This document shows positions 15,955-46,103 of a DNA stretch of 64,000 nt, piece after piece. The DNA is taken from assembly GCA_030427835.1 (NCBI GenBank), contig JAUICN010000002.1:186001-250000 (forward strand), written 5' to 3'. The notes beneath the pieces were generated by a model. That model was not told the DNA's origin, did not search any database, and worked only from the letters and a program-made list of their open reading frames with translations. Position numbers and translations under genes: made by a program. Origin of the DNA: Polyangia bacterium. GTDB taxonomy: Bacteria; Myxococcota_A; Polyangia; Polyangiales; JAUICN01. Numbering within the stretch: the stretch's first letter is position 1; every line of letters begins with the position of its first letter.

Positions 15955-16023
15955 ACCCAGGTATTCTACCAATTGATTGGGTTGGAATGCTGAGTTTTCG
16001 GCCGGCCGGTTCCAAATTTGTGG

Positions 16024-17901: not shown

Positions 17902-17961
17902 GGGGAGATATGGAGCAAGTTCTGTGCCTTCGATTTCTGGTCTCATGGGTCGGTATGGGAT

Positions 17962-18005: not shown

Positions 18006-18110
18006 AAACCATGGAACATGAAATGCTCTCAGGTCATCACTTGTGATGCGCTCCGGGTAGGCCCGTGTGTGTTTCCGTGTGCGCTTCTGTATTGGATCCT
18101 TGGGGAGGAG

Positions 18111-19979: not shown

Positions 19980-20049
19980 GGGTGTAGGACAGGCAATTCA
20001 TGTGCCGTTCTACTTTCCCGAGGGAACTGGGCTGGAGTTGCTCCTCAAA

Positions 20050-20075
20050 CGGAACCTGGAGCGCTCTGGGTTCCG
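20050..20075 (-). terminator. hairpin ending the ATPase/thioesterase transcript
   Basis: CGGAACC (20050-20056) pairs with GGTTCCG (20069-20075) around a loop containing the self-complementary AGCGCT. It is 33 bases after the thioesterase stop. On the minus strand it is followed by TTTGAGG, a weak U-tract; on the plus strand by TTTTGG. Confidence 0.45.
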
Positions 20076-20107
20076 TTTTGGAGCATTTTTGGTTCCGATG
20101 GGCTCGG

Positions 20108-20536: not shown

Positions 20537-20546
20537 GGATTGCACG

Positions 20547-21728: not shown

Positions 21729-21819
21729 TTCGCCAATTTTCCATGAAAAATGGCATTTGAGAACGAATATCTAGAAAAATGGAGTTCACTTCGCCAATTT
21801 TCCATGAAAAATGGTATTT
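21708..21819. repeat. 51-bp direct repeat spanning the ATPase start codon
   Basis: Copies at 21708-21758 and 21769-21819 match at 48 of 51 positions and start 61 bases apart. The copy nearest the gene carries the real ATG and first codons of the ATPase (minus strand). In the distal copy the start is GTG, in another frame. Each copy contains a quasi-palindrome, CCATTTTTC-ATG-GAAAATTGG, and another CCATTTTT half-site, so the repeat also doubles a possible operator. Confidence 0.8.
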
Positions 21820-21870
21820 TATGGTGCGTTTATTTGGGTTTTGAAACCAACCTGGGTCGATATCTTGAGG

Positions 21871-23895
21871 TCAGAGGACGGTGGGGTCGCAGTGGGCCAT
21901 GCTGACGCCGAAGGTGTAGAGGCGGGGGGTGGTGTTGGGGTCGGGGGCGCCGCGGAGGCGTTCTAGGCGGGCTTCGATTTGCAGTTTGCTTTGGCCCGGG
22001 TCGATGCCGGCGTCGTTGAGTAGGGTGGCGATGTCCACGGGTGCGCCGAGGTTGGGTGTGGCGCCGATGGTGGTCCAGGGAGCGCCGTTGAGGGCGGTGG
22101 TGTCGTTTGCGGTGCGCATTCGAAAGCTTAGGCGGGTTTGGGGTGGGGTGTCCGCGGTCCAGGTGAGATCTGCCCAGGCAGGATCCGATTCGGCCTGTTC
22201 GCAGAGATCAAAGGTGTGGCGGAAAAAACCCATGGCGTGGGAGGCCAGCGCCAACTGTTGGCCTGTCATGTCAGAATAGGTGTAGGGGTCGGTGAAGAAG
22301 TTAACGGAGGTGGTGTCCAGTGTGCCGTTCAAGCCGTCATCACCTTCGGAAGGTTCGTACACGAGCGCATTGCTGGATTGTGTGACGGACCAGATTTTCC
22401 CCTGGGCATCCACGGCCATGCCCTTGTTGAAGATGCCATTGGTGCGGGGCACTCGGGTGCCGATGAGAGATACGGTTTCGGGGTCAATTTGAAGAATTCC
22501 GGCGTTTCCTCCGGCACCCCAGATACGGCCCTGGGCGTCTGCTGCGATGCCGTGGATCCACGGGTAGGTGTAGTCGTTTTCCCATTGGGGGGTACTGACC
22601 TGTGTGATGCGAAGCCCTGCGGGTTGGCTGGGGTCGTACCGGGTGACTCGGTTGCCTGCCAACCAGACTCGCTGTTTGGAATCGACGGTGATGCCGTAGT
22701 TCCGTTGAAACGGCGTCGACCCGCCGTGACCTGGCATGGTGATGCGTTCCTTGACGCAGCTGTCGTTGTTGGTGCACACGGTGCTAGGGCACAGGGTTTC
22801 CGTGCATCGGGTGGTGTCGATGCGTCCAAAAATGTCATCTTGGCGGCTGGAAATCCAAAGGGTGCCGTCCTGATCCATGGCAAACCCGTAGGGCTGAACA
22901 GGGGAGTTGGTGCTCAGTAGAATCGCGCCAGTGTCGCCATCCAGTTTGAAGACCTTGCTGTCGAAACGTGACCCCACCCAGACGTAGGAATGGACTTCGC
23001 CGTCTAGACCAAACTCGTCGTAGGCCGCCATGCCCCGGACACCTCCAGTTGCCGGTAGTGGGGTGTGCCAAAGAACGCATTCGTCGCCCTGGTATCCGTC
23101 GGTAAGATCGTCATCCCAGGGAATGATCGCGATGTTTTCTGCGCTGTGGGTGGTGACGATGCCGTCGCCGTTTCTGTCAGGACAGTTCGGCCCTAGGGGC
23201 GAGAATTTGGTCACGCTGTTGCCATCACGGTTTCCTACGTAGGCTTCACCAAAGAGGTTGACGGTGGTGCGAGAGGGATCGTCTCCCCGGGTGTGGTTGT
23301 CGATCCACTTGCCCAGGGGCCCCGTTCTGTAGCGGGCGACTTCCTGCTTTGTCAGGGTGTCGATTTTGGAGACCGTGCCTTCGCCCTTGTCGGTGATCCA
23401 AATGTAGGTGTTGTTTTGGTGATTGGAATCGAGCACGAGCGCACCGTCGTTTGGATCAACGCTGACCTTGTCGTTGTTCGTTCCGCCGCTGCCACTGCCA
23501 CTGCCATTACCGTTGCCGTTGCCATTACCGTTGCCGGTTCCGCCGAGGTCGAAGGTGTTCTCGCTGTCGCATTGTCCAATGGTCGTATTGTACTTGTCGT
23601 TGGCGCACAGACTGTCGTCCGGGGGGGCGCACTTTCCCTGCAGGCAATTCTTGCTTGCGCACTGATCGTTACTGACGCATTCCGGGGTGGTTGTTGTGGT
23701 GGTGTTCGTGTCTGTGGTTGTGCTTTCTGTGTTCACACCGTCCGGGTTTTCAGAACCACTGCAGGCCATGGCCCACGTGGCAAGCCAGGCGAAGGATAGG
23801 ATGCGTAGTTGAGAAAAATGTGAGCGATTTCTTTGTAAGGTGGCTTTTGTTTTCTGTGGGTTCGCCCAGGCGTTACCCTTAACGTGGTGGTCCAT
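21871..23895 (-). CDS. surface lipoprotein, five-member paralogous family, copy 5
   Basis: 674 residues from the ATG at 23895, which overlaps the start of the divergent transglycosylase gene (ATG at 23894). The frame is open to 24129, but that extension is antisense to the transglycosylase and unlike a leader. Lipobox WAMAC (Cys45). Cys stub CVSNDQCASKNCLQGKC, then a low-complexity (Gly-Asn)n/(Gly-Ser)n stretch encoded at about 23490-23540. The body has SYIWITDKGEGTVSKIDT-like (here TYIWITDKGEG), FGEAYVGNRDG, KFSPLGPNCPDRNGDG, VFKLDGDTGAILL, YGITVDSKQRVWLAGNRVTRYDP, HGIAADAQGRIWGAGGNAGILQIDPE, GMAVDAQGKIWSV, and the module PYTYSDMTGQQLALASHAMGFFRHTF to LYTFGVSMAHC. It is the longest copy and is 2 kb from the other four. 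Confidence 0.85.
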   Translation of the reverse strand: MDHHVKGNAWANPQKTKATLQRNRSHFSQLRILSFAWLATWAMACSGSENPDGVNTESTTTDTNTTTTTTPECVSNDQCASKNCLQGKCAPPDDSLCANDKYNTTIGQCDSENTFDLGGTGNGNGNGNGNGSGSGSGGTNNDKVSVDPNDGALVLDSNHQNNTYIWITDKGEGTVSKIDTLTKQEVARYRTGPLGKWIDNHTRGDDPSRTTVNLFGEAYVGNRDGNSVTKFSPLGPNCPDRNGDGIVTTHSAENIAIIPWDDDLTDGYQGDECVLWHTPLPATGGVRGMAAYDEFGLDGEVHSYVWVGSRFDSKVFKLDGDTGAILLSTNSPVQPYGFAMDQDGTLWISSRQDDIFGRIDTTRCTETLCPSTVCTNNDSCVKERITMPGHGGSTPFQRNYGITVDSKQRVWLAGNRVTRYDPSQPAGLRITQVSTPQWENDYTYPWIHGIAADAQGRIWGAGGNAGILQIDPETVSLIGTRVPRTNGIFNKGMAVDAQGKIWSVTQSSNALVYEPSEGDDGLNGTLDTTSVNFFTDPYTYSDMTGQQLALASHAMGFFRHTFDLCEQAESDPAWADLTWTADTPPQTRLSFRMRTANDTTALNGAPWTTIGATPNLGAPVDIATLLNDAGIDPGQSKLQIEARLERLRGAPDPNTTPRLYTFGVSMAHCDPTVL

Positions 23896-26353
23896 GGGTA
23901 CGGGTAAAAAGCGTTGGCTGGCGGTGCGGTGGGTGGTCATCGTGGGTATTGCGCTTTTGATTTTAGGGTGGTTTTTAGCCCCTTGGTTTTTGCGACCGTC
24001 TGTGCAGCGGGAGCTTGCCCGCGCCTGGGGGGCGCCCGTGTCCGTGGGATCCATGATGCCAGGAGCACATCCTATTGTGTTACAAAATGTGAGCCTTGGC
24101 GAACGGGCGGGTGTGCGTGTTGCTGCCACACGTGTGGAAGTGCAGGTGTCCGCCTGGGAATGTTGGAAGGGTTGGCACGGCTGTGTGGCCGGTGTGCTTA
24201 TCTCCGGCGTGGAGGTTCACGTGAAGCTTCCTACCGGAGATGGAACTCGTTTGGGTGGGCTGTCCGGCCGGGGGCTTGGCTCCCGTTCCCTGGGGGAGGG
24301 GGCATTCGGAAGACGCATGCTTGGCCAGTTGCCCAAGACCCTGGAGTTGGATGGGGTGTCGGTGCTGGTTTCGGGTGGGCCTGGGGGAGTGGGAATGCGT
24401 GTGACAGGGGGTGAGGTGGCGCTTTCGCGAGTGTCCCAGGAGAAGCACCGGCTCCGCCTGCAGGCGCGTCAGGTCATGCTCACGGGCGCGGATGGAACGG
24501 GGGCTGCCGTTCCGAACCCGGTGGTTCGTGCGGTGGCGGACCGTGGCCGTTGGGAACTGACATCGGTGGGTGGAGCAGGTGGGCACCTGGATGTGAGTCG
24601 TGCCCTGGGCATGTGGTCGAATGTGCAATCCGGCGCGGTGGATTCCGATGCTGTGGGTTCCGATGCGGAGGCTACGGGCACTGACGGTGATGCCCCGAAG
24701 GGCACGGGTACCGGGGGGGAACCGTCGGGTCTGAGCTTCTGGACGGCGAAGGTGTTGGCCAAGATGTCGGAACGGTTTGTATTGGAGTGGGACGGGTTGG
24801 GCGTGCAAGGCCTTGGCAACCTTTCGGCTGCGGGTCCCACAACTGCAGGTCCCACCACTTCCAGGGGCCACTCGGTGAATGGGGAACTGTCGTTTCGGTT
24901 TGAGAAGGAAGGCTCCTGTGGCGTGTTTTCCGGTCACGGAAAAATGTCGCCTGAGGGTGTGGCGGATGGTTTTCTCAAGGTTTGTCCCAGCACAGGCGCG
25001 CTTACGGGCAAGGTCCATGTGCAGGAGTTGCCGTTGTCGTTTTTGACGTTGCTTGCTCCGGATCTTCCCTGGAAGTCCCCTGAACGTGGGCGTGCCAGTG
25101 GGGTTCTGGAACTGGAGGAAGTGCCGCGGGTGTCCCTGGCCCATCCGGTGCGGGTGGGTGTGGGCGGCCGACTGCGGTTGGAGCATGTGGCGTTTCAGGA
25201 GCCCCATGTGGCCGAGTCCACCGTGTTGCTGCCCCGGGTGGAGTTGCGCGGGGAGGCGTTGTGGACGCCAGAACAACGGGTGTTGGAGGTCCACCGGGGG
25301 AAGATCGGTTTGGGTGATCTAGGGAGAGATGGTGTACCCGTGCACTTTGAGGGTGCGGTGCAACTTGCGGGAGAGGATGTGGGGTTGGATGTGCGCGCCT
25401 GGTTGGAACCCTCCCGTTGTGCGGCCCTGGCCGCCGCGGTTCCCGAGGGGTTGCTGGGTGATTTGCGCCATGGGGTGTGGGAAGGGGAGATGTCTGGAAG
25501 TGCGCGGTTGCGTTTGCCCTGGCGCCGTTTGGACGACACGGAACTTGATTTGAAGGTGCGGTCCACCTGCGAGACTGTGGGTGATTCGGGATTTCCTTCC
25601 CCCGGAGTCTACAGGCGCCCGTTTTTGCACGCGGTACCCATGCCAGGGGGGGAGTTTCAGGAAGTTCGAGTGGGCCCCGGGACCCGGCATTGGGTGGAGT
25701 TGGGATCCATGAGCCCCTGGTTTGTGCACGCCGTGTTGAGCCGTGAGGATGCCCGGTTCTTTACCCACAGTGGGTTTGCACCCTGGGCGATTCGGGACGC
25801 CCTGGTGAAGGACTTGAAGCAGGGGCGATTCGTGTTTGGGGCAAGCACCATCACCATGCAGCTGGCGAAGAACCTGTTTTTGTCCCGGGTGAAAACCCTG
25901 TCGCGCAAGTTGCGTGAGGCCCTGTGGACGCAATGGTTGGAGGGCAACTTTACCAAGACCGAACTGCTGGCACTGTACTTCAATGCGATCGAATATGGCC
26001 CAGGGCTGTATGGGATTGGCCCTGCCGCGCTTCACTACTTTGGAAGGCCGCCCGGGGATTTGAATCTGGCGGAGTCCACGTTTTTGGCGCTTGTGTTGCC
26101 CAGCCCCACGCGCATGTACAGCTACCGGGACCGGGGCCTCACACCGCACATGAAACACAAGATGATGCAGGCCATGGTGCACATGTTGGACAAGGGCCGC
26201 ATTGACGGGGTGGCCCTTGAGGCGGGAAGGGCCCAGCTGGAGTCTTTTTCGTTCACGGGGGTCGACGGATCGGGCCTGGTCCCACGGGATGGGTTTGAGG
26301 GTAAGTACAACGGGCTACCCGTGCGCTTCACAACCCTGCACGAGTCGTTGTAG
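23894..26353 (+). CDS. monofunctional GT51 peptidoglycan transglycosylase with long N-terminal extension
   Basis: 819 residues from the ATG at 23894. One N-terminal membrane segment (about 8-33) is followed by some 540 residues resembling the AsmA/DUF3971-type periplasmic repeats (many short V-x-L-x-G strands such as LELDGVSVLVSGG), and only then by a GT51 domain: SREDARFFTHSGF with catalytic Glu618, GASTITMQLAKNLFL, RKLREALWTQWLEGNFTKTELLALYFN, EYGPGLYGIGPAALHYFG, LAESTFLALVLPSPTRMY. No transpeptidase domain follows. It should polymerise lipid II into glycan strands at the inner membrane. The extension could span the periplasm; its role is inferred. Followed by a MATE gene on the same strand after a 67-base gap. 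Confidence 0.88.
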   Translation: MGTGKKRWLAVRWVVIVGIALLILGWFLAPWFLRPSVQRELARAWGAPVSVGSMMPGAHPIVLQNVSLGERAGVRVAATRVEVQVSAWECWKGWHGCVAGVLISGVEVHVKLPTGDGTRLGGLSGRGLGSRSLGEGAFGRRMLGQLPKTLELDGVSVLVSGGPGGVGMRVTGGEVALSRVSQEKHRLRLQARQVMLTGADGTGAAVPNPVVRAVADRGRWELTSVGGAGGHLDVSRALGMWSNVQSGAVDSDAVGSDAEATGTDGDAPKGTGTGGEPSGLSFWTAKVLAKMSERFVLEWDGLGVQGLGNLSAAGPTTAGPTTSRGHSVNGELSFRFEKEGSCGVFSGHGKMSPEGVADGFLKVCPSTGALTGKVHVQELPLSFLTLLAPDLPWKSPERGRASGVLELEEVPRVSLAHPVRVGVGGRLRLEHVAFQEPHVAESTVLLPRVELRGEALWTPEQRVLEVHRGKIGLGDLGRDGVPVHFEGAVQLAGEDVGLDVRAWLEPSRCAALAAAVPEGLLGDLRHGVWEGEMSGSARLRLPWRRLDDTELDLKVRSTCETVGDSGFPSPGVYRRPFLHAVPMPGGEFQEVRVGPGTRHWVELGSMSPWFVHAVLSREDARFFTHSGFAPWAIRDALVKDLKQGRFVFGASTITMQLAKNLFLSRVKTLSRKLREALWTQWLEGNFTKTELLALYFNAIEYGPGLYGIGPAALHYFGRPPGDLNLAESTFLALVLPSPTRMYSYRDRGLTPHMKHKMMQAMVHMLDKGRIDGVALEAGRAQLESFSFTGVDGSGLVPRDGFEGKYNGLPVRFTTLHESL

Positions 26354-34453: not shown

Positions 34454-36295
34454 TTAGTGGGAGGTGCGGAGGCTGGTGAGTAGGTCTCGGAGTTCTTGGA
34501 TGTCTTTTTGGTATTGGGGAGCGGCGTTTTGTTCTGCCGTGGGGTGGATGGTTTGCTCGATGAGCGTGATGGCTTTTTCAACGGCAGAGTTGAAGTGGGG
34601 GTGTTTGCATGGGCAGTCGTCCAGGAGTGGTGGCTCGCATTCGCACAGGGGCATACGAGATGGGCATTGTGGCACCTTTACACTGGAGGGAACGACTGCA
34701 AACGAGGCCGTTGTCACCATGGATTGACCCATGGAGGACTGGGAGGTGCTGTTCCCGAAGTTGAGCATGATGGTGGGTGGGCGAACCCATTGGGCCAGCA
34801 GTTTGTATTTGGCGAAGGGGCCCTCTTGCCATGCAGGGGTGCCGGTGGGGGGATCGTAGGACTGTTGTGGATCAATCCATATGTCCCGCGATTGGATTCT
34901 AGGTTGTGATCCGTAGCTGAAGTCTTCACAGGTAACAGACTTCCATGGGCTGAGATGAACGGTGGTACCGGTCAAACGTACGGTGCTACTTCCCAGCCCG
35001 TAGGGCTCCCCATGGGAGAGTTCGTGGGCTTTTCCTGGCAACGGAGGCGGCTCCGGATGGGTGGGCGCTCCGAGGTGCAGTGTTTTTCCAGGGGTTGGGG
35101 TGACCCCCCTTGCCCGTTTCAGGGCATGGGAAAGCAACCAACGGCTGGCGGTGAGATTGGCTGCCACCTCTTCACCTAACCCCCAGAAGCGGTCGTATTG
35201 ATGGTAGCCGTGAAGCACCGCCCACACTGTTTCGCTGTTGTCTGCAAAGGCAGCCCCGCTGTCTGAGGTGAGGGTCATATCCTGGCCGCCCAGCGCAAGG
35301 TGCTCCCGGTAACGTGTGTAGCCCTGCACGGCGTGGGAGGAGGGTGAGCCGTCCCGGGGGCGACCCCAGCCAGTGAACGTAAGGCCCTGGTTGATGAGGT
35401 GCTCATCTTCCTTTGGCCATTTGAGGCGTGGTGTTGAGGGTGGAAACGTTCCGTGCACAAAAAGCAGCGCAAGGTCAGCTTCGATCGCTCCGTCGTGTTC
35501 GTATTCTTCGTTGCCGTAGAACGGGTGGGGAATGGTGATGGCCACGGGGAGAGCTTTTTCATCCCTCACGTGTCCAACCCCAATTCGAAGGTCGTGGTTT
35601 TCATCCAGGCAATGGCCTGCCGTGAGAACCACCTCTCCGAGTTTAAAATCAGGATTTCCTGTCGGATGCTGGAACGCTTCCATGTCGATCAATGCACCGG
35701 AACAGGTAAGTACTGAAGTCTCGTCGTGATCTTCCAGCAGGTACACCCCTGGGCCTTCACTGTTGTTGGGGGTTCGGCCCTGCAAACCCACCTGTTGGTG
35801 CAAGATCTTCCAGATCTCGTCCGCCGCCCAACCTAGTCTCATGGCGATGCTCTCGTCCATGAAGGTGAGTTCCTCTTCCATCCGTTGATCGGCGCGATCG
35901 TGCTGCCATTTTCTGAACTGGGCTTCTGCTGACGCGGCGTCGTTTCTAAAGTCCTTGCAGGCGGGCCAACGGTGTTCCTCCCCCTCCCAAACGGCGTACT
36001 TCTGGGTGCCGGGATCCCAATGGATGCCCAGGCTATGCTGTTTTCCTTTGGCGTGTTTCAGGGTCCATTGCATGGCCCGTACCCAGGTGGCATTGGGGCA
36101 GTTGGCGTAGGTGTGGAGTGAGTGATGGTTGTTGTAGGCCCCGCGCCACCCTCCCCCGAAGTCCACGATGGTGCGTGGATTGCTCCCGCTGCTCTTCGGT
36201 TGCCCAGGCGCCCTGAGCGGAGGCGTACACGCTGCGACGGAGAGCGCTCCGGCTGCCAGCAAACCTAGACGTTGGATCCATGGGTGGATGGACAT
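34454..36295 (-). CDS. trypsin-like serine protease lipoprotein
   Basis: 613 residues from the ATG at 36295; the frame is open to 36379, but only the internal start gives a normal leader MSIHPWIQRLGLLAAGALS with lipobox SVAAC (Cys23). A unique N-terminal domain (about 40-180) is followed by a chymotrypsin-fold region: VVLTAGHCLDE (His228), EADLALLFVHG (Asp274), GWGRPRDG, TLTSDSGAAF (Ser346, an SDSGAA variant of GDSGGP). A further C-terminal domain (about 400-585) ends with a Cys-rich patch LCECEPPLLDDCPC and the tail QELRDLLTSLRTSH. All three catalytic residues are present, so it should be an active, lipid-anchored endopeptidase. The next gene is a full-length paralogue lacking the triad. Confidence 0.88.
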   Translation of the reverse strand: MSIHPWIQRLGLLAAGALSVAACTPPLRAPGQPKSSGSNPRTIVDFGGGWRGAYNNHHSLHTYANCPNATWVRAMQWTLKHAKGKQHSLGIHWDPGTQKYAVWEGEEHRWPACKDFRNDAASAEAQFRKWQHDRADQRMEEELTFMDESIAMRLGWAADEIWKILHQQVGLQGRTPNNSEGPGVYLLEDHDETSVLTCSGALIDMEAFQHPTGNPDFKLGEVVLTAGHCLDENHDLRIGVGHVRDEKALPVAITIPHPFYGNEEYEHDGAIEADLALLFVHGTFPPSTPRLKWPKEDEHLINQGLTFTGWGRPRDGSPSSHAVQGYTRYREHLALGGQDMTLTSDSGAAFADNSETVWAVLHGYHQYDRFWGLGEEVAANLTASRWLLSHALKRARGVTPTPGKTLHLGAPTHPEPPPLPGKAHELSHGEPYGLGSSTVRLTGTTVHLSPWKSVTCEDFSYGSQPRIQSRDIWIDPQQSYDPPTGTPAWQEGPFAKYKLLAQWVRPPTIMLNFGNSTSQSSMGQSMVTTASFAVVPSSVKVPQCPSRMPLCECEPPLLDDCPCKHPHFNSAVEKAITLIEQTIHPTAEQNAAPQYQKDIQELRDLLTSLRTSH

Positions 36296-36427
36296 GGCTG
36301 CCGACAAGCATGCTCTGTGCCACTTGAACTTGCGCTGGAAACATACCCTCGCGCTAACCCGTGAGGGTGCGATTCTCAATCGTGGTGACAGGTGGAGTTG
36401 CAGGTCAATCGTCCTGTTTTTCTTGTC

Positions 36428-38272
36428 TCAATTCTGTTTGGGCACATGCCTGAGGCTTGTGAGTAGGTCCTGCAGTTGGCTGCGTTGTGTTTGGGAGATT
36501 GGAGTGATTCCATTCGTTGCATAGGCCTCAATGAGCATAAGAACTTCGTTGACGGCCTGCTCCATGCAGCCGTACTTGCACGCACAGGGGTTATGGGATC
36601 CGCGGTCGAAAATGTTTTCGTGTTCGTTGCACTCAGCCAGCTGAGTGATGCACTGACTGCCTGGGGTTCTACCGATGCGAACGGTAAAGAGATCGTGACC
36701 TTGGCCTGTGGGCTGGTTGATGCTTTCAAAGAAGGGCAGTGGTGGGCGGGCAAACTGTGCCTGTAGGAGAATGGACAGCGGGGGTATGCGTGTCAGTCCA
36801 GGAACGAGGCTAATTTGCTTGTAGAATGCTGTGACTGTGGAGGCTGCTGATGTTGGTTTGCACTGGTGGGGAGTCCATGGGCTGACCGTCACCTGCTGTT
36901 TTCCAACGGTGATGGCGTGGGTACCGAGGGGCCAGAACTCGGCATCCCTGTCGTTCATCTGTGGTGAACCCGGTGGGGTGTTTTCTGGAAGGCTGGCGAG
37001 AGTGAGGAACTGGGTGTAATTTTTGTTCTGGGATTCGGAGCTCGCTATTTCGGCCACCTGTCGAAGGGCGTGGCGTAGGAATAGTTGGTTGAACCGTAGG
37101 GGCACAAAGGCTTGGCCGGGCCAGGTGGCGGCACTGTAGATTCCCCAGAGCACGTGGTTCTCATCACCGAGGGGTGCGCCGCGATCCCAGGTGGAAAGTG
37201 CTGCGCCGTAGGTGTCTAGGGAAATGACCTCTCGGAATGCGGTGTGGTAGGCAACCCTCCAGGAGGATAGGAGTCCGTTTTCAGGAAAGCCGTAGCCTGC
37301 GCCGCGGAGGGTTTCTCCCTCAGTGTCCCGCTGTTCGGGCCAATGGTAGCCGGTGGCTTTGGGGACGGTGGCATTCTTTGTGAGTAGTAGGGCAACGTTT
37401 TCCCCGTGATTCGCTCTGTATTTGAGAGATTCGGTTCCTTTCCAATGGGGGTGAGTCACCGCCACCTCTACGGGAGTGGCGGGGTGGTTCAGCATGGGGC
37501 CCAGCCCGATTTGGAAACGAGCGGTGCCTTCCTGTTCGCTGTCCGTTTCCAAGCATTGCGCTGTGGTGACCGCGGCCTGCGCAAACGGAGGCGGTGGAAC
37601 CATGTTGAGGAAACTCACTGTGCACCGCAGTCGGTTGACGGTGTCTTCTTTCGTTGCTCCCGTAAACGTTTGGGCCAGGTAGCCCATATGCCCGTTTGCG
37701 GACTCGAGCCTTCTCCCTTCGGTTTGAACGGGGCGTGTGAGATCAAGCCAGACTTGTTCTACCGCAGCGTTCCAATCCTGCATTACAAGGACCGGGCGCG
37801 CGCCGCCTAATTCTGCATGGGCGTCTCCTAGCTGGGCGTGCAGGAGGCTGCCGAGCAGGTTCTTGGCGTGTTCGCTCGACAACCGCATTTGCTGACATTT
37901 GGCCGTGTGCCCGGAGAGAGACGTGGTCACTGCGAAGCCGATTGTCGATCCGTCAGTAAGCACACCTCGATGCACCGCCACGCGGAAACGGTGCGTGTGT
38001 AGTTGTGGGTGTCGCACCGTGAAGCGCACGGTGCGGGCCAATTTCCCGCGTTCACAGTAGGGGTAGGCGTCGATGAGAAAACGGGCATCGTACTGGATAG
38101 ACCAGCCCTGACCGAGTGGGATCTTCCCGATGGGGTTTTCTCCCTTGGTAGGAAGCGCCGATGTTGTGGGTTGGGGCGTCGCCTGGCGAGGGGAGGCGAT
38201 GCACCCCAGGGCGAGGGTACCGGCGAGTACAATAGGGGCAAACGGAGATGTCTTGAAGAACGGGGTGGGCAC
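36428..38272 (-). CDS. pseudoprotease paralogue of the trypsin-like lipoprotein
   Basis: 614 residues, lipobox ALGC (Cys24). Aligned by eye along its whole length with the neighbouring protease: N-terminal GGW/QGW...WTLKH/RFTVRH, the core, the SPW-x3-C segment (HLSPWKSVTC versus TVSPWTPHQC), and the tail RSQLQDLLTSLRHVPKQN versus QELRDLLTSLRTSH. At the three catalytic positions it has Gln239 for His (AVTTAQCLE), Asn292 for Asp (ENVALLLTK) and Arg364 for Ser (TWDRGAPLG). It is therefore a catalytically dead homologue that is otherwise intact and under no sign of decay, suggesting a binding, inhibitory or partner role. Gap to the protease gene 132 bases; same strand. Confidence 0.85.
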   Translation of the reverse strand: MPTPFFKTSPFAPIVLAGTLALGCIASPRQATPQPTTSALPTKGENPIGKIPLGQGWSIQYDARFLIDAYPYCERGKLARTVRFTVRHPQLHTHRFRVAVHRGVLTDGSTIGFAVTTSLSGHTAKCQQMRLSSEHAKNLLGSLLHAQLGDAHAELGGARPVLVMQDWNAAVEQVWLDLTRPVQTEGRRLESANGHMGYLAQTFTGATKEDTVNRLRCTVSFLNMVPPPPFAQAAVTTAQCLETDSEQEGTARFQIGLGPMLNHPATPVEVAVTHPHWKGTESLKYRANHGENVALLLTKNATVPKATGYHWPEQRDTEGETLRGAGYGFPENGLLSSWRVAYHTAFREVISLDTYGAALSTWDRGAPLGDENHVLWGIYSAATWPGQAFVPLRFNQLFLRHALRQVAEIASSESQNKNYTQFLTLASLPENTPPGSPQMNDRDAEFWPLGTHAITVGKQQVTVSPWTPHQCKPTSAASTVTAFYKQISLVPGLTRIPPLSILLQAQFARPPLPFFESINQPTGQGHDLFTVRIGRTPGSQCITQLAECNEHENIFDRGSHNPCACKYGCMEQAVNEVLMLIEAYATNGITPISQTQRSQLQDLLTSLRHVPKQN

Positions 38273-38367: not shown

Positions 38368-39603
38368 CTACAGGGGTTCGATGAAGGCGCCCACGTCTTC
38401 GCCGCTTTGTACAAAGAAGGCCTGGCCAAAGGTGTCGAGCAGCTCCAGGGTTTTGTCCAGGTCTTCGCGGGTGTGGCCGCGGGTTACGTTGAGTCGCAGT
38501 CGTTCCTGGCCCTCTTTGACGCTCGGGTAGGTAAGCGGTACCAGGTGCACACCGCTTTCTAGTAGCGCCAGGTGCATGAACAATGCCTTGCGTTCATCGC
38601 GGCACATGATTGGCATGATGTGGCTGTTGCTGTCGCCGAGATCAAATCCAAGTTCGACCAGGGAAGAGCGCATGTAGTGCGCGTTGTCGTGCAGTTCGCC
38701 AACCAGGGTTTCCCCGTCCTTCTCTAGCATGTCGAGAATGGTAGACGCGGCTGCGACTATCGGTACGGGTAGGCTTGCGCTGAACAAAAAGGAACGGGCC
38801 CGGTGCTTGATGTGATCGACGACATCCTTGTTCCCAAAAAGCAGGCCGCCAATACCGCCAAGGGATTTGGAGAAGGTGCTGATGACAATGGGGATGCGGC
38901 CTTGCAGCCCGTACTTCTCGATGATCCCGGTGCCGCGCTTTCCGAGCGTGCCCGTGCCGTGGGCGTCGTCGCAAATGATCGGGGCGTCGTAGCGATCCGC
39001 CACTTCTAGCAGTTCTTGGATGTTGGCTTCGTCGCCATCCAGGGAATAGATGCCCTCCAGTAGAACGATGGCGTTCTTGCGCTGCTTGCTTTTGAGGCAA
39101 CGCTCAAGGGATCGGGCGCTGTTGTGGTTAAAGAACCGTACCTCTGGTGCCTGGCCGGGTGTGCCTGCGGCGAGAAAGGTGCCGTCCAAAATGCAGGCGT
39201 GGGAGAGGTTGTCGAGAATGAGGGTGGTGTCCTTGTCGGCCAGGGACATGAGTGTTCCCACCATGGCTTGGTAGCCCGTGGTGAAAATGGCGCAGGCCTC
39301 GAACCCCATCCAGTTTGCCAGGCGTTCTTCCAGCTCGATGTGGGCGACGGTGGTGGCCTGCACCCGCGAGGAAGAAAGCCCACAGGCGTATTGGTCCACG
39401 GCCTTCTTGGACGCTTCTTTCACGAGGGGGTGGGTGGTGAGGCCCAGGTAGTCGTTGGAGCTAAAGTTTACAATGGGCTTGCCAGCAATGCTGGTGTGAA
39501 GCCCGCCGGACTCAAAGGCGTGAAAGTAGGGGTACACCTGCTTTTCCTTCGCCTTACGTACGCGATCCAGTTCCTGGTACGCCTTGTCGTCGATCCAACT
39601 CAT
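38368..39603 (-). CDS. alpha-oxoamine synthase, serine-palmitoyltransferase-like
   Basis: 411-residue PLP enzyme of the alpha-oxoamine synthase family, which condenses an amino acid with an acyl thioester and releases CO2. The PLP lysine is Lys246 in STFSKSLGGIGG; the TFSK form is typical of serine palmitoyltransferase rather than BioF or KBL (TLGKAxG). CDDAHGTG (211-218) and DNLSHACILDG (His135) supply the other PLP contacts. It is immediately 3' of a dead ketosynthase and an active ketosynthase on the same strand, and two ACP genes lie divergently, so the acyl donor may be an ACP-bound chain, as described for bacterial sphingolipid synthesis. The amino acid substrate cannot be told. Confidence 0.88.
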   Translation of the reverse strand: MSWIDDKAYQELDRVRKAKEKQVYPYFHAFESGGLHTSIAGKPIVNFSSNDYLGLTTHPLVKEASKKAVDQYACGLSSSRVQATTVAHIELEERLANWMGFEACAIFTTGYQAMVGTLMSLADKDTTLILDNLSHACILDGTFLAAGTPGQAPEVRFFNHNSARSLERCLKSKQRKNAIVLLEGIYSLDGDEANIQELLEVADRYDAPIICDDAHGTGTLGKRGTGIIEKYGLQGRIPIVISTFSKSLGGIGGLLFGNKDVVDHIKHRARSFLFSASLPVPIVAAASTILDMLEKDGETLVGELHDNAHYMRSSLVELGFDLGDSNSHIMPIMCRDERKALFMHLALLESGVHLVPLTYPSVKEGQERLRLNVTRGHTREDLDKTLELLDTFGQAFFVQSGEDVGAFIEPL

Positions 39604-39716
39604 GGGGCCGCTGTTCTGTCCCCCGAACGCCCCCTTGTCGAGCTCCCAGCATGGTGGCTGGGGGCCTGTGACAACCGGTCACATGTGAGCTCAAATCACA
39701 GTAAGGAAGGGCGTTC

Positions 39717-40883
39717 CTAGGCGCTGCGGGTCTGCATCACGATGGCGCTGGTGTTGCCGTAGAAACCGGTGGAGAGAATGAGGGCGTTGCAGCCCCTAGG
39801 GGGGCTGGCGCTCAGGTGGGCGAGTGCGGTGGCCATGGCCAGGGCGCCGGAGGCTCCGAAGGTTTCTCCCAGGTGATCCTTGGGTGAAATACGGGTTGTG
39901 GGGCAAACCCCTAGAAGTTGGTCCAGGGCCTGATCTTCGGCTTGATCAATGTAGTTGAGGCCACTTTTGGAGGTGCACACGAGATCGAGCTGGTCTGGCG
40001 TGATGCCCGCCTCGCAAAGTGCGGCGCGTGCTGCGCGAAGCACCGTGTCCGCGGAGGCAAACACGAGGGGGTTTGGGCTGTGGGTGAGGGCTGGCCCCAG
40101 GGCGGTTCCGTAGCCGGTAATCCACGCCAGGGGGGGCCTGTTGTTGGCGTGGTTGCCTGTGTCGGCGTCCACAAAGAAGAGTGCGATCCCTTCTCCTAGG
40201 GTGAGGCCTTCGCCTGGGGTGGATGTTCGCAGGATTCCAGTGGCCTGGGCTGCGCCCTCTAGGGCTTCCCCAAGGACTTCTGCTCCTCCCACAAGGAACG
40301 CCCGCGCGCGGCCCTGGGCGATGTGTGTGCGGGCGTTGAGCACGGCGTCGAGGGCACCCGGGTTGCCGCTCACCACCGTGGTGTTGGGCCCACGCAGGGC
40401 ATGGCGAATGCTGACGTAGCCTGCGGGTGTGGTGATGATCGTGTTGGGGAAGCGTGCGGGGTTGAGGTGGCGTGGGTTTTCCTCGCAGGTTCTGCTGGCC
40501 CCTGCGATCACATCCTGGGATCCGTAACTGGTGGAAATGCTCACACCCACCTGTTCTGGTGTCCAGGGGTGGGTCCATTGAAATGCCACAGCACCTTGTG
40601 CGGGGTTGGTGCCGTGGGTTTGCACTCCCGATCCGACCATGGCCTGCTCGGCACCGACCAGCAGCAGTTGTGTAAGGCGATCAAAGTTGCGGTTGCCCTT
40701 TTTTCCCAAATAGGGAGTGACGTCGAAGTCCTCAATGACCTTCTTCTCGATGGTGGGGGGTGGCAGTTCTGTGGATGCCCCACGTTGGCTCCAGTGTGCA
40801 TTCCAGGACTGCACGGTGATGCCCACCGGGCTCACCACACCGTAGCTGCGAATGGCAAGGGGAGTGGTTGTACTAGCCCACAT
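39717..40883 (-). CDS. chain-length-factor-like ketosynthase partner, catalytically inactive
   Basis: 388 residues from the ATG at 40883, supported by GGAGATC upstream; the open frame extends to 40994 but that part is antisense-type sequence overlapping the ketosynthase. It has the thiolase fold of ketosynthases (SYGVVSPVGITVQSW, GVSISTSYGSQDVIAGA, PAGYVSIRHALRGPNTTVVSG, GASGALAMATALAHL), but the catalytic Cys position is Asn174 (SGNPGALDAV), the first His is replaced (CTSKSGLN) and the second is Glu (DHLGETFG). This is the pattern of a KS-beta/chain length factor that pairs with an active KS. Its start overlaps the stop of the ketosynthase by 11 bases. Confidence 0.85.
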   Translation of the reverse strand: MWASTTTPLAIRSYGVVSPVGITVQSWNAHWSQRGASTELPPPTIEKKVIEDFDVTPYLGKKGNRNFDRLTQLLLVGAEQAMVGSGVQTHGTNPAQGAVAFQWTHPWTPEQVGVSISTSYGSQDVIAGASRTCEENPRHLNPARFPNTIITTPAGYVSIRHALRGPNTTVVSGNPGALDAVLNARTHIAQGRARAFLVGGAEVLGEALEGAAQATGILRTSTPGEGLTLGEGIALFFVDADTGNHANNRPPLAWITGYGTALGPALTHSPNPLVFASADTVLRAARAALCEAGITPDQLDLVCTSKSGLNYIDQAEDQALDQLLGVCPTTRISPKDHLGETFGASGALAMATALAHLSASPPRGCNALILSTGFYGNTSAIVMQTRSA

Positions 40884-42183
40884 GATGATCTCCCCTTGGG
40901 TGGTTTTCCTTGGGGTGATTGTCCTCGGGGTGATCGTCACCGAAGGTGGCCAGGGGGCGATCTGAAACGGGGGGGAGAACATCGGGCGCCGCAAAGGTCA
41001 CCACGGCGTTGTAGCCCCCAAAGGCAAGGGCGTTGTTGAGGACGACTTTGGGGTGGAGCCGTTGCGCTTGGTTGGCGATCACACGCACGTCGCACTCTGG
41101 GCCCTTTTGCCCGTGGTTGATGGTGGGTGGAACCCAGCCCGTGCGCACCGACTGTACACAGGCGACCGCTTCGAGCGCACTTGCCGCACCCATGCAATGC
41201 CCGATCATGCTCTTGACGCTTGTGACCGCCACGTCGTGTGCACCAAAGACCTTGCGAATCACTTGGCTCTCCACCGGGTCGTTGGTGGGTGTGCCTGTAC
41301 CGTGTGCGTTGACATGATCCACGTCGCTGGGTGTGAGCCCACTGGTGCGAATGGCGTTTCCCATGGCGCGGGCATTGCCTGCACCTTCGGGGTTCGGGTG
41401 GGTCACGTGGTGGCCGTCGCAGGCCAGGCCGTACCCCCCCACTTCAGCCAGGGGCTCTGCCCCGCGGGCGCGCATGTGGGATTCGCTTTCGAGCACAAGA
41501 ATGGCGGCCCCTTCTCCCACAAGAATACCGTCCCGGTCCTTGTCGAAGGGGCGGCAGGTGTTCTTCGCGACCGCACCAAGCCTTGCAAAGCCCGCCAGTT
41601 CGGCCCGCTCCAATACCTCGGCCGCTCCGGTGATGGCCATGTCGACCATTCCCTGGCGGATTTGGTCGGCGGAGTACCCGATGGCGTAGTTTCCGGCGGC
41701 GCATGCCGCGGGCAGGGTCATGGCGGGGCCCTGGGCGCCCACGGTGCGAGCCGCGTGAATGGAAAGTAGGCTTCCCCCGTATTGGAGGATCTTTTGGGGT
41801 GCGACGGCCTGGGCGCCCTCTGTGATCCATGCGGTATGCAGCTGTGCAAGTAGGTTGCCCTCACCCATGGTGGTGCCGAGAAACGCGGCCGTTCGCTCGG
41901 GTGAGGGCAGGGACTTGAGGCGGGCCATGTCGGCGGCCATGCGCGTGGCGGCAACCACCATGGCGGAGGCGCGCCCCATGGTTCGGGCTTCGGTGCCCCT
42001 GAGATGGTCCCGAACGTGGAATCCCTTGGCTTCACAGCCGATGTCACGGCCAATCCCGGTGGTATCAAATGCGGTGATGGGTGCGGCCCCGCTTTCACCG
42101 CCCTTGAGGCCGCTCCAATAGGTGGAAAGCCCGGTGCCCAGGGGCGAAACGACCCCCATGCCGGTTATGAACACCCGTTGCAT
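40873..42183 (-). CDS. beta-ketoacyl-ACP synthase (FabF-like KS-alpha)
   Basis: 436 residues from the ATG at 42183 (MQRVFITGMGVVSPLGTGLS); the frame is open upstream to 42267 but not KS-like there. Active-site triad complete: Cys161 in TLPAACAAGNYAIG, His294 in VNAHGTGTP, His329 in SVKSMIGHCMGAA with Lys324. It catalyses decarboxylative condensation of malonyl-ACP with an acyl chain. The C-terminus carries an odd His/Asp-rich tail (DHPEDNHPKENHPRGDHHVG) that lies in the overlap with the next gene's start. It forms a KS-alpha/KS-beta pair with the following gene, next to two ACPs and an oxoamine synthase. Confidence 0.9.
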   Translation of the reverse strand: MQRVFITGMGVVSPLGTGLSTYWSGLKGGESGAAPITAFDTTGIGRDIGCEAKGFHVRDHLRGTEARTMGRASAMVVAATRMAADMARLKSLPSPERTAAFLGTTMGEGNLLAQLHTAWITEGAQAVAPQKILQYGGSLLSIHAARTVGAQGPAMTLPAACAAGNYAIGYSADQIRQGMVDMAITGAAEVLERAELAGFARLGAVAKNTCRPFDKDRDGILVGEGAAILVLESESHMRARGAEPLAEVGGYGLACDGHHVTHPNPEGAGNARAMGNAIRTSGLTPSDVDHVNAHGTGTPTNDPVESQVIRKVFGAHDVAVTSVKSMIGHCMGAASALEAVACVQSVRTGWVPPTINHGQKGPECDVRVIANQAQRLHPKVVLNNALAFGGYNAVVTFAAPDVLPPVSDRPLATFGDDHPEDNHPKENHPRGDHHVG

Positions 42184-42379
42184 GGCTCCGGAGTAGCGCG
42201 GAACCCCCAGTCGGCAAGGGCAGTGGCCTGGGGTTTTAGGCCATATTACTGTGACCTGGCGGCACACCTTGACACTACCGTAGGCCGACCTTAACTTTGG
42301 CCGCTCACACGCACGGGGTGGATATGGGCTTTGTTGTCGGCCACCCCAGCCGTCCCTTACCTCAAAGGTCTTTCACCCC

Positions 42380-42652
42380 ATGTCCCGTTCAGAATTGGTT
42401 CAGACGTTCCGCAGGCTTGCCGAAGAGATCGCCGAGCGCGACTTTTCTTCCTTGGAAGAAAGCAGCCCCATCACGGATCTGGGGTTGGATTCCCTGGGCA
42501 CCATGGAGTTGGTGGGCGCCCTGGAGCAGGAAGTGGATGTGGAGATTCCAGACGAGGATCTGGCCAAAATTCATAGGATTTCAGACCTGTTGGCCATCGT
42601 GGAACGGTTGGTTGCTTCTGGTGGTGGAGCGGCTGCTGGTGAGAAGGAGTAA
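42380..42652 (+). CDS. acyl carrier protein 1 of the oxoamine synthase cluster
   Basis: 90 residues with phosphopantetheine site Ser38 in LGLDSLGTMELVGALEQE, then VDVEIPDEDLAKIHRISDLL. A short Gly/Ala-rich tail follows. It is the first of two tandem ACP genes reading away from the ketosynthase gene, with a 196-base divergent promoter region between them. Two carrier proteins together with KS/KS-beta suggest dedicated chain building. Confidence 0.9.
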   Translation: MSRSELVQTFRRLAEEIAERDFSSLEESSPITDLGLDSLGTMELVGALEQEVDVEIPDEDLAKIHRISDLLAIVERLVASGGGAAAGEKE

Positions 42653-42654
42653 CC

Positions 42655-42912
42655 ATGTCCAAGGAAGCCCTTGACTACACCCAGGTAAAGGAACGCTTGC
42701 GGGAGATCATCTCCGAGGTTTCCGAGGTGGACGAAATTCCTGACGGCGCTTCGTTCAAGGATTTGGGCATCGACAGCATGATGGCCATGGAGATCGTCAG
42801 CGAAGTGGAGCGGGAATACAGCATGTCCATTCCCGAGGAGGAGCTCCAGGAGCTTACGGACCTTGAAAAAGTGTTCGAAAAGGTTCGCGCGAGCCTGAGC
42901 GCTGCTGCGTAG
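42655..42912 (+). CDS. acyl carrier protein 2 of the oxoamine synthase cluster
   Basis: 85 residues; Ser41 in FKDLGIDSMMAMEIVSEVER is the prosthetic-group site (DSM variant). It begins two bases after the stop of ACP 1 and the two are clearly diverged, so they probably carry different chains or partners. The GGAG-type ribosome site (GAAGGAGTAACC) lies inside the end of the first ACP gene, supporting coupled translation. Confidence 0.9.
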   Translation: MSKEALDYTQVKERLREIISEVSEVDEIPDGASFKDLGIDSMMAMEIVSEVEREYSMSIPEEELQELTDLEKVFEKVRASLSAAA

Positions 42913-43138: not shown

Positions 43139-44425
43139 ATGAGTACGATTGTCATGCCTTCCCTTGGGGAAAGTGTTTCCGAGGGCGAAATTGGGAAATG
43201 GTTGGTCACGGAAGGCCAGCGGGTGGAGAAGGATCAGCCCCTCGTGGAGGTGTTGACCGACAAGGCCGACAGCGAGATTCCTGCCACGGAAGGTGGTGTG
43301 GTGACCAAGATTTTTGCCGCCGAAGGTGATGTCATCGCCGTGGGCGACAACCTTTGCGAGCTAGATCCTGCAGGCGAGGCCACCGCGGGTGCCCCGGCGG
43401 AGGCCGCGGGCGATTCGGCCACTGCAGATACTTCTACCGGGTCCGGAGCTGCGGATTCGGACGTGGTGAGCTCCCCTTCGGTACGCAAGTTGGCCCGGGA
43501 AGAGGGCGTGGATCTTGGAAAAGTTCAGGGCAGTGGCTCCTCGGGCCGTGTCACCCAGGATGACGTCCGTCGCGCGGCGGATGGTGGAGCCTCCCCCGCA
43601 GCGATTCCACCGGTTCCCCCTGCGGCCATTCCTGCATCATCATCCGCGTCGGCTTCTACGGCCGTAGGCGGTGTTGCTCCCCAACCTGCCAAGAGTGCCT
43701 TTAAGGTGCCCCCCTACAAGCCATCTCCTGGGGATGAGGTGATCCCTTACAACCGTCGTCGACGGATCATCGCCGATCACATGGTTTACTCCAAGCTCAC
43801 CGCTCCCCACGTGGTGACCTTTGCCGAGTGTGATCTCCATGCCGCAGCAAAGGTGCGTGAGGCCCATAAGAAGGCCTTCAAGGCCGATGGGCTGAACCTC
43901 ACCTACCTTTCCTTTGTGGCCGCCGCGACCTGCCGTGCCCTTCGTGAGGTGCGTGCTGTGAACGCCCGCGTGCTTGACGACGCCTACGTGATCTTCCGGG
44001 ACATTAACCTAGGCGTGGCCGTGGATACCCCAGACGGCTTGGTTGTTCCCGTCATTCGCAACGCCGATGAGCTTTCCGTTCGCGGCATTGCCCGGGCCAT
44101 CGATGACATCGCTACCCGCGCCCGCAACGGCGACCTCACCCCGGACGACTTGGCCAACAAAACGTTCACCATTTCCAACCCGGGCCGTAAGGGCAACCTG
44201 GTCGGCGGAGCCATCATCTCCCAACCCAACGTGGGGATTCTGCGCATCGGCGAAATCAAAAAGCGTGTGGTGGTGGTGGAAAAGGACGGCGAGGATCTCA
44301 TGGCCATCCACCCCGTCATGCAAATGGCCCTGTCCTACGACCATCGTATTGTGGATGGTGTGGCGGCGAATGGGTTTTTGTGGACTGTGAACGATATTCT
44401 CCAACGCGCCGACTTCGAACTGTAG
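43139..44425 (+). CDS. 2-oxoacid dehydrogenase complex E2 (dihydrolipoyllysine acyltransferase)
   Basis: 428 residues with all E2 domains. Lipoyl domain at 1-76 with the lipoylated Lys42 in LTDKADSEIPA; Ala/Pro/Thr-rich linker; E3/E1-binding domain at about 116-152 (SPSVRKLAREEGVDLGKVQG, GRVTQDDVRRA); another Ala/Pro linker; catalytic acetyltransferase core ending SYDHRIVDG (His402, Asp406). The start has a strong GAGGA ribosome site. It could serve pyruvate, 2-oxoglutarate or branched-chain oxoacid dehydrogenase; E1 and E3 genes are not in the window, so which complex it joins cannot be decided. Its TAG stop is the first three bases of a structured repeat. Confidence 0.92.
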   Translation: MSTIVMPSLGESVSEGEIGKWLVTEGQRVEKDQPLVEVLTDKADSEIPATEGGVVTKIFAAEGDVIAVGDNLCELDPAGEATAGAPAEAAGDSATADTSTGSGAADSDVVSSPSVRKLAREEGVDLGKVQGSGSSGRVTQDDVRRAADGGASPAAIPPVPPAAIPASSSASASTAVGGVAPQPAKSAFKVPPYKPSPGDEVIPYNRRRRIIADHMVYSKLTAPHVVTFAECDLHAAAKVREAHKKAFKADGLNLTYLSFVAAATCRALREVRAVNARVLDDAYVIFRDINLGVAVDTPDGLVVPVIRNADELSVRGIARAIDDIATRARNGDLTPDDLANKTFTISNPGRKGNLVGGAIISQPNVGILRIGEIKKRVVVVEKDGEDLMAIHPVMQMALSYDHRIVDGVAANGFLWTVNDILQRADFEL

Positions 44426-44549: not shown

Positions 44550-44658
44550 TTGTGGTGGGCGTGGCTTACCGCTTCGGTCGGAACCTCAACGTATGTTGAA
44601 TACGCCTCGGCCCCTCCCTGCAGGGGCGCTCGTGGTCTGGGCAACCTCCGGCGACTAC
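44550..44658 (+). repeat. structured intergenic repeat, copy B2
   Basis: Direct repeat of B1 at an offset of 114 bases; the core 44564-44634 is nearly identical to 44450-44520. Its own left arm is degenerate (44546-44563), but its right arm 44634-44657 is a perfect 24-bp inverted match of the B1 left arm 44423-44446. B1+B2 thus form one 235-base element with perfect terminal inverted repeats. The right arm contains the TAG stop of the convergent sctQ-like gene. Confidence 0.82.
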
Positions 44659-46103
44659 GGGGTGGGTTGGTGGACTTGGAAGCCTACTTCGCCGTCTATG
44701 CTTACGATTTCGCCTTGGGCGATGGGGTGGTCGCCTACTCGGAGGGTGGCTTGTACGCCTAGGGTTTGCCCGGTGGCCACGACCTGGCCTGGTTTTAGGG
44801 CGGAGAGTTCGCCTACGGTCATGGAGAAGCGGGCGATTTCTATGGAGACCTCCAGGGGGGCGGCCTGAACTTGCATGACGGGGTCACCCTCCGTGGGGGC
44901 GAGCCATTGGGCCACCACCGGGGTGACGGGTTCGGTGCCGGGGGGGGTGGGAGAGGTGCTTTCGTCTGGGTTTTCTTTGCTGCTGACCACGTGGCCCTCC
45001 TTTGTTTTCGGTGGCCCCTGTGTTGTGGCCGCCAGTCGCAGTTGTTCTGCCGATCGTTGCGCATTGTTGGAATCGTGTTGGGGTGCCATGGCCACGCGGA
45101 CTTCGGTTTCACCTGGAGCAGTTCCAGGTGCCAGCTCGCAGAGCCATGTGGGTACGTGATCGGCGTTTGCTGTGCGTACGTTCAAACGCACAGTCCCGAA
45201 ACATATCGAACGGGAACGATCTGGATCGGGTGCAAGGCCCATCCATTGGGGGATCACCACATCTCCGGGCTTTAGGCCCGCCAGCTGATGGACCTGTAGG
45301 GATCCTCGCCCGGCTTCGATGGAGACGGGCATGGACACCTGTTCAAGACCGCTACCGATGGGGAAGGGCTGGCTGTTTGGCGGAGGTGGTTTTGAGGGGT
45401 TTTGTTTTGATTGGTCTGTTTTAGTTTGGGGCCACACCACGCCATCCGGCATCCATACGCGCACCCTCCCTTGAATGTCTTTGCCGGTGACCTCGATGGT
45501 CATGGCACAGTGGGCCTGGCTGCTTGCTTCCGGTTGGGTAGCTAGGGGTTCGAGCTCCGATGGTCGCGTGTGGATTTGTTCGATCAACAGACCCGCATGG
45601 AGGGCCTGGAGAACATGCCCCATGCCAAGCGCCAGCACACCCCGCTCCACTTCCAGAAGCTCAGCGGGGCTTGCTGGAGGAATGTCCGCATCCGAACCCA
45701 GCAGTGTGTGCACCAGGTACCGTGCCAGTACGGGATCCAACTCGATGTACCCGCAGCGGGCGCCCCCCGTGGGCCAGCTCACCAGGCCGACCACAAAGGG
45801 GGCCGACCAGGCACGGAGCATCTCTGCCATGGAACGTACCCTGTGGGCATGCACAACTCGGGCCTTTAGCTCCGTGCCCCACAGGGCCTGCGCCCGTTGT
45901 ACAAGCTGGTGGTGGTTGGGTTCCACTAGGGAGAAAAACTCCCGTACGGCAGCGGTTACGGTGGCGGCCTGCACGCCTTCCAAGGATCGCAGGATTTCCA
46001 TCGGAAAGGGTTGCACCCGTGGTTCCTCAAACATCCTTCGGTGGTCAAACACCACGGGGCGCGTCACTTCGCTGGAAGGGGGCTCTGAGCTCACCCCCAC
46101 CAT
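44655..46103 (-). CDS. type III secretion cytoplasmic-ring protein, SctQ/FliM-N-like
   Basis: 482 residues. The N-terminal 220 residues have a FliM/SctQ-type alpha/beta domain (RRMFEEPRVQPFPMEILRSLEGVQ, YIELDPVLARYLVHTLLG). Two SpoA (FliMN C-terminal) domains follow: about 245-320 (VSIEAGRGSLQVHQLAGLKPGDVV) and about 405-480 (APLEVSIEIARFSMTVGELS, LKPGQVVATGQTLGVQATLR). Pro/Gln-rich linkers lie between. Such proteins form the sorting platform of the injectisome or the flagellar C-ring. The next same-strand gene upstream (47102-47785) is a SctP/FliK-like ruler, but no other secretion gene is in the window; SctQ is favoured over FliM, with moderate certainty. Confidence 0.8.
   Translation of the reverse strand: MVGVSSEPPSSEVTRPVVFDHRRMFEEPRVQPFPMEILRSLEGVQAATVTAAVREFFSLVEPNHHQLVQRAQALWGTELKARVVHAHRVRSMAEMLRAWSAPFVVGLVSWPTGGARCGYIELDPVLARYLVHTLLGSDADIPPASPAELLEVERGVLALGMGHVLQALHAGLLIEQIHTRPSELEPLATQPEASSQAHCAMTIEVTGKDIQGRVRVWMPDGVVWPQTKTDQSKQNPSKPPPPNSQPFPIGSGLEQVSMPVSIEAGRGSLQVHQLAGLKPGDVVIPQWMGLAPDPDRSRSICFGTVRLNVRTANADHVPTWLCELAPGTAPGETEVRVAMAPQHDSNNAQRSAEQLRLAATTQGPPKTKEGHVVSSKENPDESTSPTPPGTEPVTPVVAQWLAPTEGDPVMQVQAAPLEVSIEIARFSMTVGELSALKPGQVVATGQTLGVQATLRVGDHPIAQGEIVSIDGEVGFQVHQPTP

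Follow-up and report, generated by a model that had tools for sequence, protein, structure and literature searches.

A type II ketosynthase pair conserved beside a serine palmitoyltransferase-like enzyme suggests a polyketide-type route to sphingolipids in a myxobacterial order

The long chains of sphingolipids are normally drawn from ordinary fatty-acid synthesis. The window analyzed here is a stretch of 64,000 nucleotides from a Polyangia bacterium (assembly GCA_030427835.1, contig JAUICN010000002.1, positions 186,001 to 250,000), and at 38368-42912 it carries five genes encoding a serine palmitoyltransferase (SPT)-like alpha-oxoamine synthase (AOS), an active ketosynthase (KSα), a catalytically dead ketosynthase (KSβ) and two acyl carrier proteins (ACP1 and ACP2). 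The initial annotation of this DNA recognized all five, and our analysis confirmed each of them. The locus raises the question of whether a polyketide-type chain builder supplies a sphingolipid-starting enzyme with its chain. If it does, the chain length and unsaturation of membrane lipids would be set by polyketide machinery in the greater part of an order. As small separate proteins, the parts could be rebuilt in E. coli, and the genomes of the order offer a natural experiment, since a genome has either an ordinary SPT or the present set, and in one genus the AOS and ACP2 are retained without KSβ.

The locus probably encodes a pathway dedicated to long-chain bases of the sphingolipid type, and a type II polyketide-like pair of ketosynthase and chain-length factor (KS/CLF) would have been added there to an ACP-dependent, SPT-like enzyme. 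Because the KS pair is kept next to a probable sphingolipid-starting enzyme in many genomes, our results suggest that part of the sphingolipids in many bacteria of one myxobacterial order is built by a route unreported in the literature searched.

The ketosynthase pair

KSα, KSβ and AOS follow one another on the minus strand. KSα (40873-42183; 436 aa from ATG) retains a complete catalytic site, with C161, H294 and H329 exactly as numbered in the initial annotation, and these residues together with K324 are invariant in the 27 sequences aligned. In KSβ (39717-40883; 388 aa from ATG; PF00109/PF02801) the catalytic Cys, His and His are replaced by Asn174, Ser305 and Glu340, again as first described, and G173, K335, G339 and E340 are invariant (31/31). 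These alignments, the window included, comprised 31 of 39 KSβ, 27 of 38 KSα and 26 of 48 AOS sequences extracted, fragments and near-duplicates being omitted, as were rows of <59% from the AOS alignment; the trees were built from further subsets of 45 KS, 46 AOS and 42 fatty acyl-AMP ligase (FAAL) sequences. KSα and KSβ overlap by 11 bp, so the overlap of reading frames noted at the outset is real, although the longer overlap in the list of open reading frames was due to an upstream TTG start. The C terminus of KSα, where KSβ overlaps (40873-40940, minus strand), is a histidine- and proline-rich tail.

As in type II KS/CLF systems, a KS with a full triad thus adjoins a KS-like partner that lacks the catalytic Cys. 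In the tree, KSα joins the KS members of pairs from actinomycetes and Omnitrophota (100/98), with E. coli FabF and FabB and the FabF of the genome itself standing elsewhere, and KSβ clusters with actinomycete chain-length factors (99/93) and not with FabF. The best sequence match of KSα in the PDB was chain B of 9s5h (350 bits), followed by the ishigamide KS (6kxd_A); that of KSβ was chain C of 9s5h (95 bits, or 237 bits with a profile). A fold search with the KSβ model returned FabF and KS chains at near-equal scores (Z 45.9 to 43.3), which did not separate CLF from FabF, and 9s5h was absent among the fold matches listed. Of eight homologues listed from Streptomyces plasmids, one carries the annotation "ketosynthase chain-length factor". 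From the tree placement and the nearest solved structures, 9s5h and 6kxd, the pair is, as judged by sequence, a KS/CLF pair of the highly reducing kind and no recent duplication of FabF.

Like ishigamide and the actinomycete pairs (loci L179 and L182-L187), the pair consists of an active KS and a dead partner that fall in the same clades, and the Glu at the second His place of KSβ is shared with six of the seven actinomycete CLFs in the tree and with chain C of 9s5h. In aromatic type II polyketide synthases the CLF is known to have Gln at the place of the catalytic Cys. KSβ has other residues there (Asn in 27, Pro in three and His in one of the 31 aligned sequences), and its prevailing Asn also differs from the Gln or Arg of the actinomycete CLFs. 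A further difference from highly reducing type II pairs is that the window's pair is linked to an AOS and to sphingolipid-type genes, with no dedicated reductase or dehydratase recognised.

Two other assignments were considered and rejected. KSα is not the housekeeping FabF, as the tree indicates and as a separate fabG-acpP-fabF set on contig C22 of the same genome (3.3 Mb in 30 contigs, 98% complete) confirms; because of this set, the KS and ACP parts of the locus are extra. KSβ is not a pseudogene, given its open frame and invariant residues.

Conservation and gene order

The locus set is conserved across one order, with public relatives among the Sandaracinaceae and Polyangiaceae. Among 56 genomes of this order, in which KSβ was scored at E<=1e-20 and the AOS at a minimum of 60% identity, KSβ was present in 42, the AOS in 46 and both in 41; nine had neither, and the five with an AOS and no KSβ all belong to genus g4. 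No genome with KSβ and without an AOS was found, since the AOS accompanies 41 of the 42 KSβ genes and in the remaining genome (G016) a contig end interrupts it (L075). Across 112 genomes sampled evenly from the phylum, KSβ occurred in 10 and the AOS in 12, all inside the order, and neither was found in the 94 sampled genomes outside it. A scan of named genomes, from which 80 of 93 related loci were kept, yielded 72 loci from Myxococcota or other bins (with titles including Sandaracinaceae, Polyangiaceae and Labilithrix), seven from actinomycetes, which carry KS/CLF pairs, and one from an Omnitrophota bin (L170). The last has a KS, a CLF-like KS and an ACP together, with no AOS within its 11 kb, and Phe occupies the catalytic place of its dead KS.

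Gene order was compared in a set made up of the window and 40 loci of relatives, which shares genomes with the 72 named loci. KSα adjoins KSβ in 36 of 40 testable loci (60/62 in the named loci), the AOS lies within 3 kb downstream of KSβ on the same strand in 28 of 39 (56/68), with a median gap of 96 bp where the two are adjacent (113 bp in the window), and a divergent ACP stands upstream in 25 of 31 (41/45). This order is maintained across many genera, and where the AOS does not adjoin the KS block it is still present in the genome. Because orthologues keep the KSα-KSβ and KSβ-AOS adjacencies, the association of these genes is not due to chance.

The ordinary SPT of the order has another distribution. 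An SPT-like enzyme of 36-39% identity to the AOS was found in seven of the nine genomes without an AOS, where KSβ is absent as well, and six of these seven were placed in the tree, where they group with the E. coli SPT. Apart from a copy of 46% identity in genome G048, no second SPT-like enzyme was found in the 46 AOS genomes, and the 20 lower-scoring AOS paralogues fetched fall with 2-amino-3-ketobutyrate CoA ligase (KBL) or BioF. Since genomes with the ordinary SPT lack the AOS and KSβ and AOS genomes lack a second enzyme, ordinary SPT and AOS are seen, on homology, to replace one another across the order.

The copy in G048 belongs to a second locus (L093 and L106; G048:C139, about 26-41 kb), where it lies near a KS, an HMG-CoA-synthase-like gene, an enoyl-CoA hydratase, a short-chain dehydrogenase/reductase (SDR), a glycosyltransferase and a second CerS-like gene; this might be a polyketide route with beta-branching that leads to a different sphingoid base.

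The two carrier proteins can be assigned to different partners. ACP1 (42380-42652, 90 aa) and ACP2 (42655-42912, 85 aa) both belong to PF00550, both are of the PP-binding type, and both have the arm-attachment serine in a DSL/DSM motif. They lie two bases apart on the plus strand, separated from KSα by an intergenic region of 196 bp (42184-42379) with start codons at 42183 (minus) and 42380 (plus). They had been described as divergent, which is correct with respect to the KS operon but not to each other, as they stand in tandem. In relatives, ACP1 adjoins the KS pair. Four loci of g4 were examined (L076-L079), where ACP2 is divergent beside the AOS and neither ACP1 nor a KS was seen beside the AOS; for this reason ACP2 probably works with the AOS, and ACP1 with the KS pair.

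Other genes of relatives' clusters are less constant, with a FAAL in 19 and a YbgC-like (hotdog) thioesterase in 14 of 40 loci, and an acyl-ACP desaturase gene between the ACPs in a few (L060, L063 and L147). None of the three was found in the window's cluster. The cluster FAAL of relatives, 34.7% identical to E. coli AasR over 504 aa, forms a separate clade and has moved or vanished in several lineages; in g4, no cluster-type FAAL was found at E<=1e-100 in three of the five genomes, and the other two gave matches of 41-42% only. The genome of the window (G000) has a paralogous FAAL on contig C9, which was rejected as a relocated cluster ligase, as it groups with paralogues that G002 and G039 carry in addition to the cluster ligase. 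Because the ligase has moved or vanished in these lineages and the window's genome has only a paralogue, FAAL appears not to be needed for the core of the system.

The oxoamine synthase and its relation to known sphingolipid systems

The AOS (38368-39603, minus strand; 411 aa; PF00155) is a pyridoxal phosphate (PLP) enzyme in which H135, D212, H215, K246 and R370 are invariant (26/26 aligned). K246 lies in the TFSK motif already noted in the initial annotation and is taken by us to be the PLP lysine, the conserved His, Asp and Arg presumably having the roles of SPT-type residues. In the tree the AOS is sister to, and not inside, the SPT clade formed by the E. coli SPT and the six ordinary SPTs of the order (100/99), and it stands apart from KBL and BioF; the ordinary SPT of G021 was left out of this tree, and E. 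coli kbl was used without its first residues. The AOS model is nearest to the Sphingobacterium SPT 3a2b (Z 48.6, rmsd 1.8, 388 aligned), with KBL and BioF entries ranking behind it, and the relatives of the AOS also include the cysteate acyltransferases 28eh and 7u7h (the latter with Z 43.0, rmsd 2.6, 385 aligned). Its best NCBIfam model, SPT_CFB, gave 318 bits against a cut-off of 640, and as this cut-off is not reached we call the enzyme SPT-like and not SPT; the ordinary SPT of G006 likewise falls short (462 vs 640). Assignment as KBL or BioF was ruled out by the tree. At E<=1e-40 a single further AOS was found in the window's genome, a KBL (645 bits, cut-off 460), and this search gave no other SPT candidate there.

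Homologues of later ceramide genes are present in the same genome on another contig (C30), where the gene for a YghO/CerS-like protein (39% to E. coli YghO over 374 aa; L097:9112-10242) is followed by that for a CerR-like protein (32% over 318 aa; L097:8044-9030). A CerS-like gene occurs in 54 of the 56 genomes of the order. It lies beside this AOS in G008 (L082) and near the ordinary SPT in three of five SPT loci compared (L089, L090 and L091, not L087 or L088), and in G037 the ordinary SPT is followed by CerS- and CerR-like genes. The ordinary SPTs of the order (L087-L092) are of the same protein family as the AOS, but they are only 36-38% identical to the one in the window and occur in genomes without KSβ.

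How much of this is new was judged against two known systems. An SPT with its own ACP and ligase, AcpR-AasR-SPT, is known from Caulobacter crescentus and E. coli BL21, with aasR distant in Sphingomonadaceae, and yghO, aasR, cerR, acpR and spt are listed as ceramide genes (PMC9386255). That system resembles the present one in its SPT-type AOS with a dedicated adjoining ACP and in CerR- and CerS-like genes in the genome, and also in its fatty acyl-AMP ligase, which here is confined to the clusters of relatives; the window's locus differs in its KSα, KSβ and second ACP and in an AOS of another clade. In E. coli BL21, yghO, aasR, cerR, acpR and spt stand side by side, whereas the CerS/CerR-like genes of the window's genome are on a separate contig. 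A type I polyketide synthase that feeds an SPT-active oxoamine synthase is known as SgaAB of Pseudomonas fluorescens MYb115 (PMC12134224). Here too a polyketide-type enzyme is the proposed chain supplier to an oxoamine synthase, but SgaA, as described there, is an iterative type I enzyme and the window's locus consists of separate single-domain type II proteins conserved over most of an order. No report of a type II KS/CLF pair with two ACPs and an SPT-like enzyme was found in the open-access literature searched. KS/CLF pairs, SPT with an ACP and the feeding of an AOS by a type I polyketide synthase are known, and the combination of a type II KS/CLF pair with an AOS is the apparently new part, so that the "new chemistry" first claimed for the locus narrows to a type II feeder.

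A proposed pathway and its alternatives

In the pathway that we favor, KSα and KSβ would form a heterodimer that lengthens a chain on ACP1 with the help of housekeeping reductases and dehydratase. The chain would then move from ACP1 to ACP2, and the AOS would condense the acyl-ACP2 with serine, the likeliest amino acid, to give a 3-keto sphingoid base, which the CerR- and CerS-like proteins could convert by reduction and N-acylation into a ceramide-like lipid. In many relatives the cluster FAAL may prime the carrier and the hotdog thioesterase may clear stalled chains, and in a few the acyl-ACP desaturase would add a double bond. The initial proposal of a dedicated sphingolipid-like pathway with a KS pair finds good support in the conservation, the co-occurrence and the CerS/CerR-like genes; the feeding of the AOS by the KS pair is a step that we infer. 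A wider version, in which a type II polyketide synthase makes the long chain of the sphingoid base in most of the order (KSα/KSβ setting length and unsaturation on ACP1, with delivery via ACP2 to the AOS) and polyketide-derived sphingolipids have replaced the ordinary SPT route, is put forward tentatively, as somewhat short of an even chance.

Several observations weigh against the favored pathway. The AOS does not adjoin the KS pair in 11 of 39 testable loci, in several families (f9, some f5 and some f2 genomes), and in all five g4 genomes KSβ is absent and the AOS is kept, so that the AOS can do without the pair. The cluster has no recognised gene for a ketoreductase, dehydratase or enoyl reductase, and no cluster-type FAAL that would prime ACP1 was found in the window's genome. 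SPT, BioF and KBL models give the AOS similar scores, and it is under every NCBIfam cut-off, so that its amino acid is not fixed by sequence; its grouping with SPT rests on long branches. Finally, the branch of the window's KSβ is long (1.44, against 0.30-0.76 in relatives), for which reason this copy may be changing or weakening.

The unlinked loci and the g4 genomes mean that the KS pair could build the N-acyl chain or another lipid, and from this comes the strongest alternative, an unlikely but serious one: two modules, in which the AOS and ACP2 would make an ordinary sphingoid base from housekeeping acyl groups and KSα/KSβ with ACP1 (and FAAL where present) would make a different chain, which might become the N-acyl part of ceramide or a polyene-like lipid of its own. 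The presence of two separate ACPs fits such a division. However, KSβ was not found without an AOS, except where a contig end cuts the locus, KSα, KSβ and AOS look like one operon with a short KSβ-AOS gap in most families, and the CerS-like gene, the would-be user of an N-acyl chain, is outside the window's cluster. The initial annotation had named occurrence of the parts in unrelated contexts as evidence against a joint pathway, and this is seen in part, as the KS block stands away from the AOS in some loci, yet nearly every KSβ genome has the AOS. The gene order and the lack of a KSβ without an AOS favor the KS pair feeding the AOS over two modules, without proving it.

It is improbable that the AOS makes an amino ketone outside the sphingolipids (a capnine-like sulfonolipid, a signal molecule or a pyrrole precursor) with the KS pair setting its chain. 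The low SPT_CFB score, the cysteate acyltransferases among the relatives and an amino acid that is not predictable from sequence would all allow such a product, but CerS- and CerR-like genes are present in the genome, where no further SPT candidate was found, tree and fold put the AOS nearest to SPT, and AOS and ordinary SPT are mutually exclusive. That KSβ is a decaying FabF copy among ordinary fatty-acid and AOS genes brought together by chance, as its long branch in a small genome might suggest, is hardly credible in view of its open frame and four invariant residues, its orthologues in 42 of 56 genomes, its grouping with CLFs and not FabF, and the separate housekeeping fabG-acpP-fabF set.

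The genes flanking the locus were rejected as cluster members, as they were not seen in the clusters of relatives. These are two large secreted-looking proteins immediately downstream of the AOS (34454-38272, minus strand), one with a trypsin domain, an E2 gene (43139-44425) and an SctQ/FliN-like gene (44655-46103, minus strand; FliMN_C 75 bits, SctQ model 80 bits against a cut-off of 100.8), which is possibly part of a type III secretion system. Farther away (12288-24129, minus strand), three of four large proteins scanned gave weak matches to two-component-regulator-propeller (beta-propeller) repeats.

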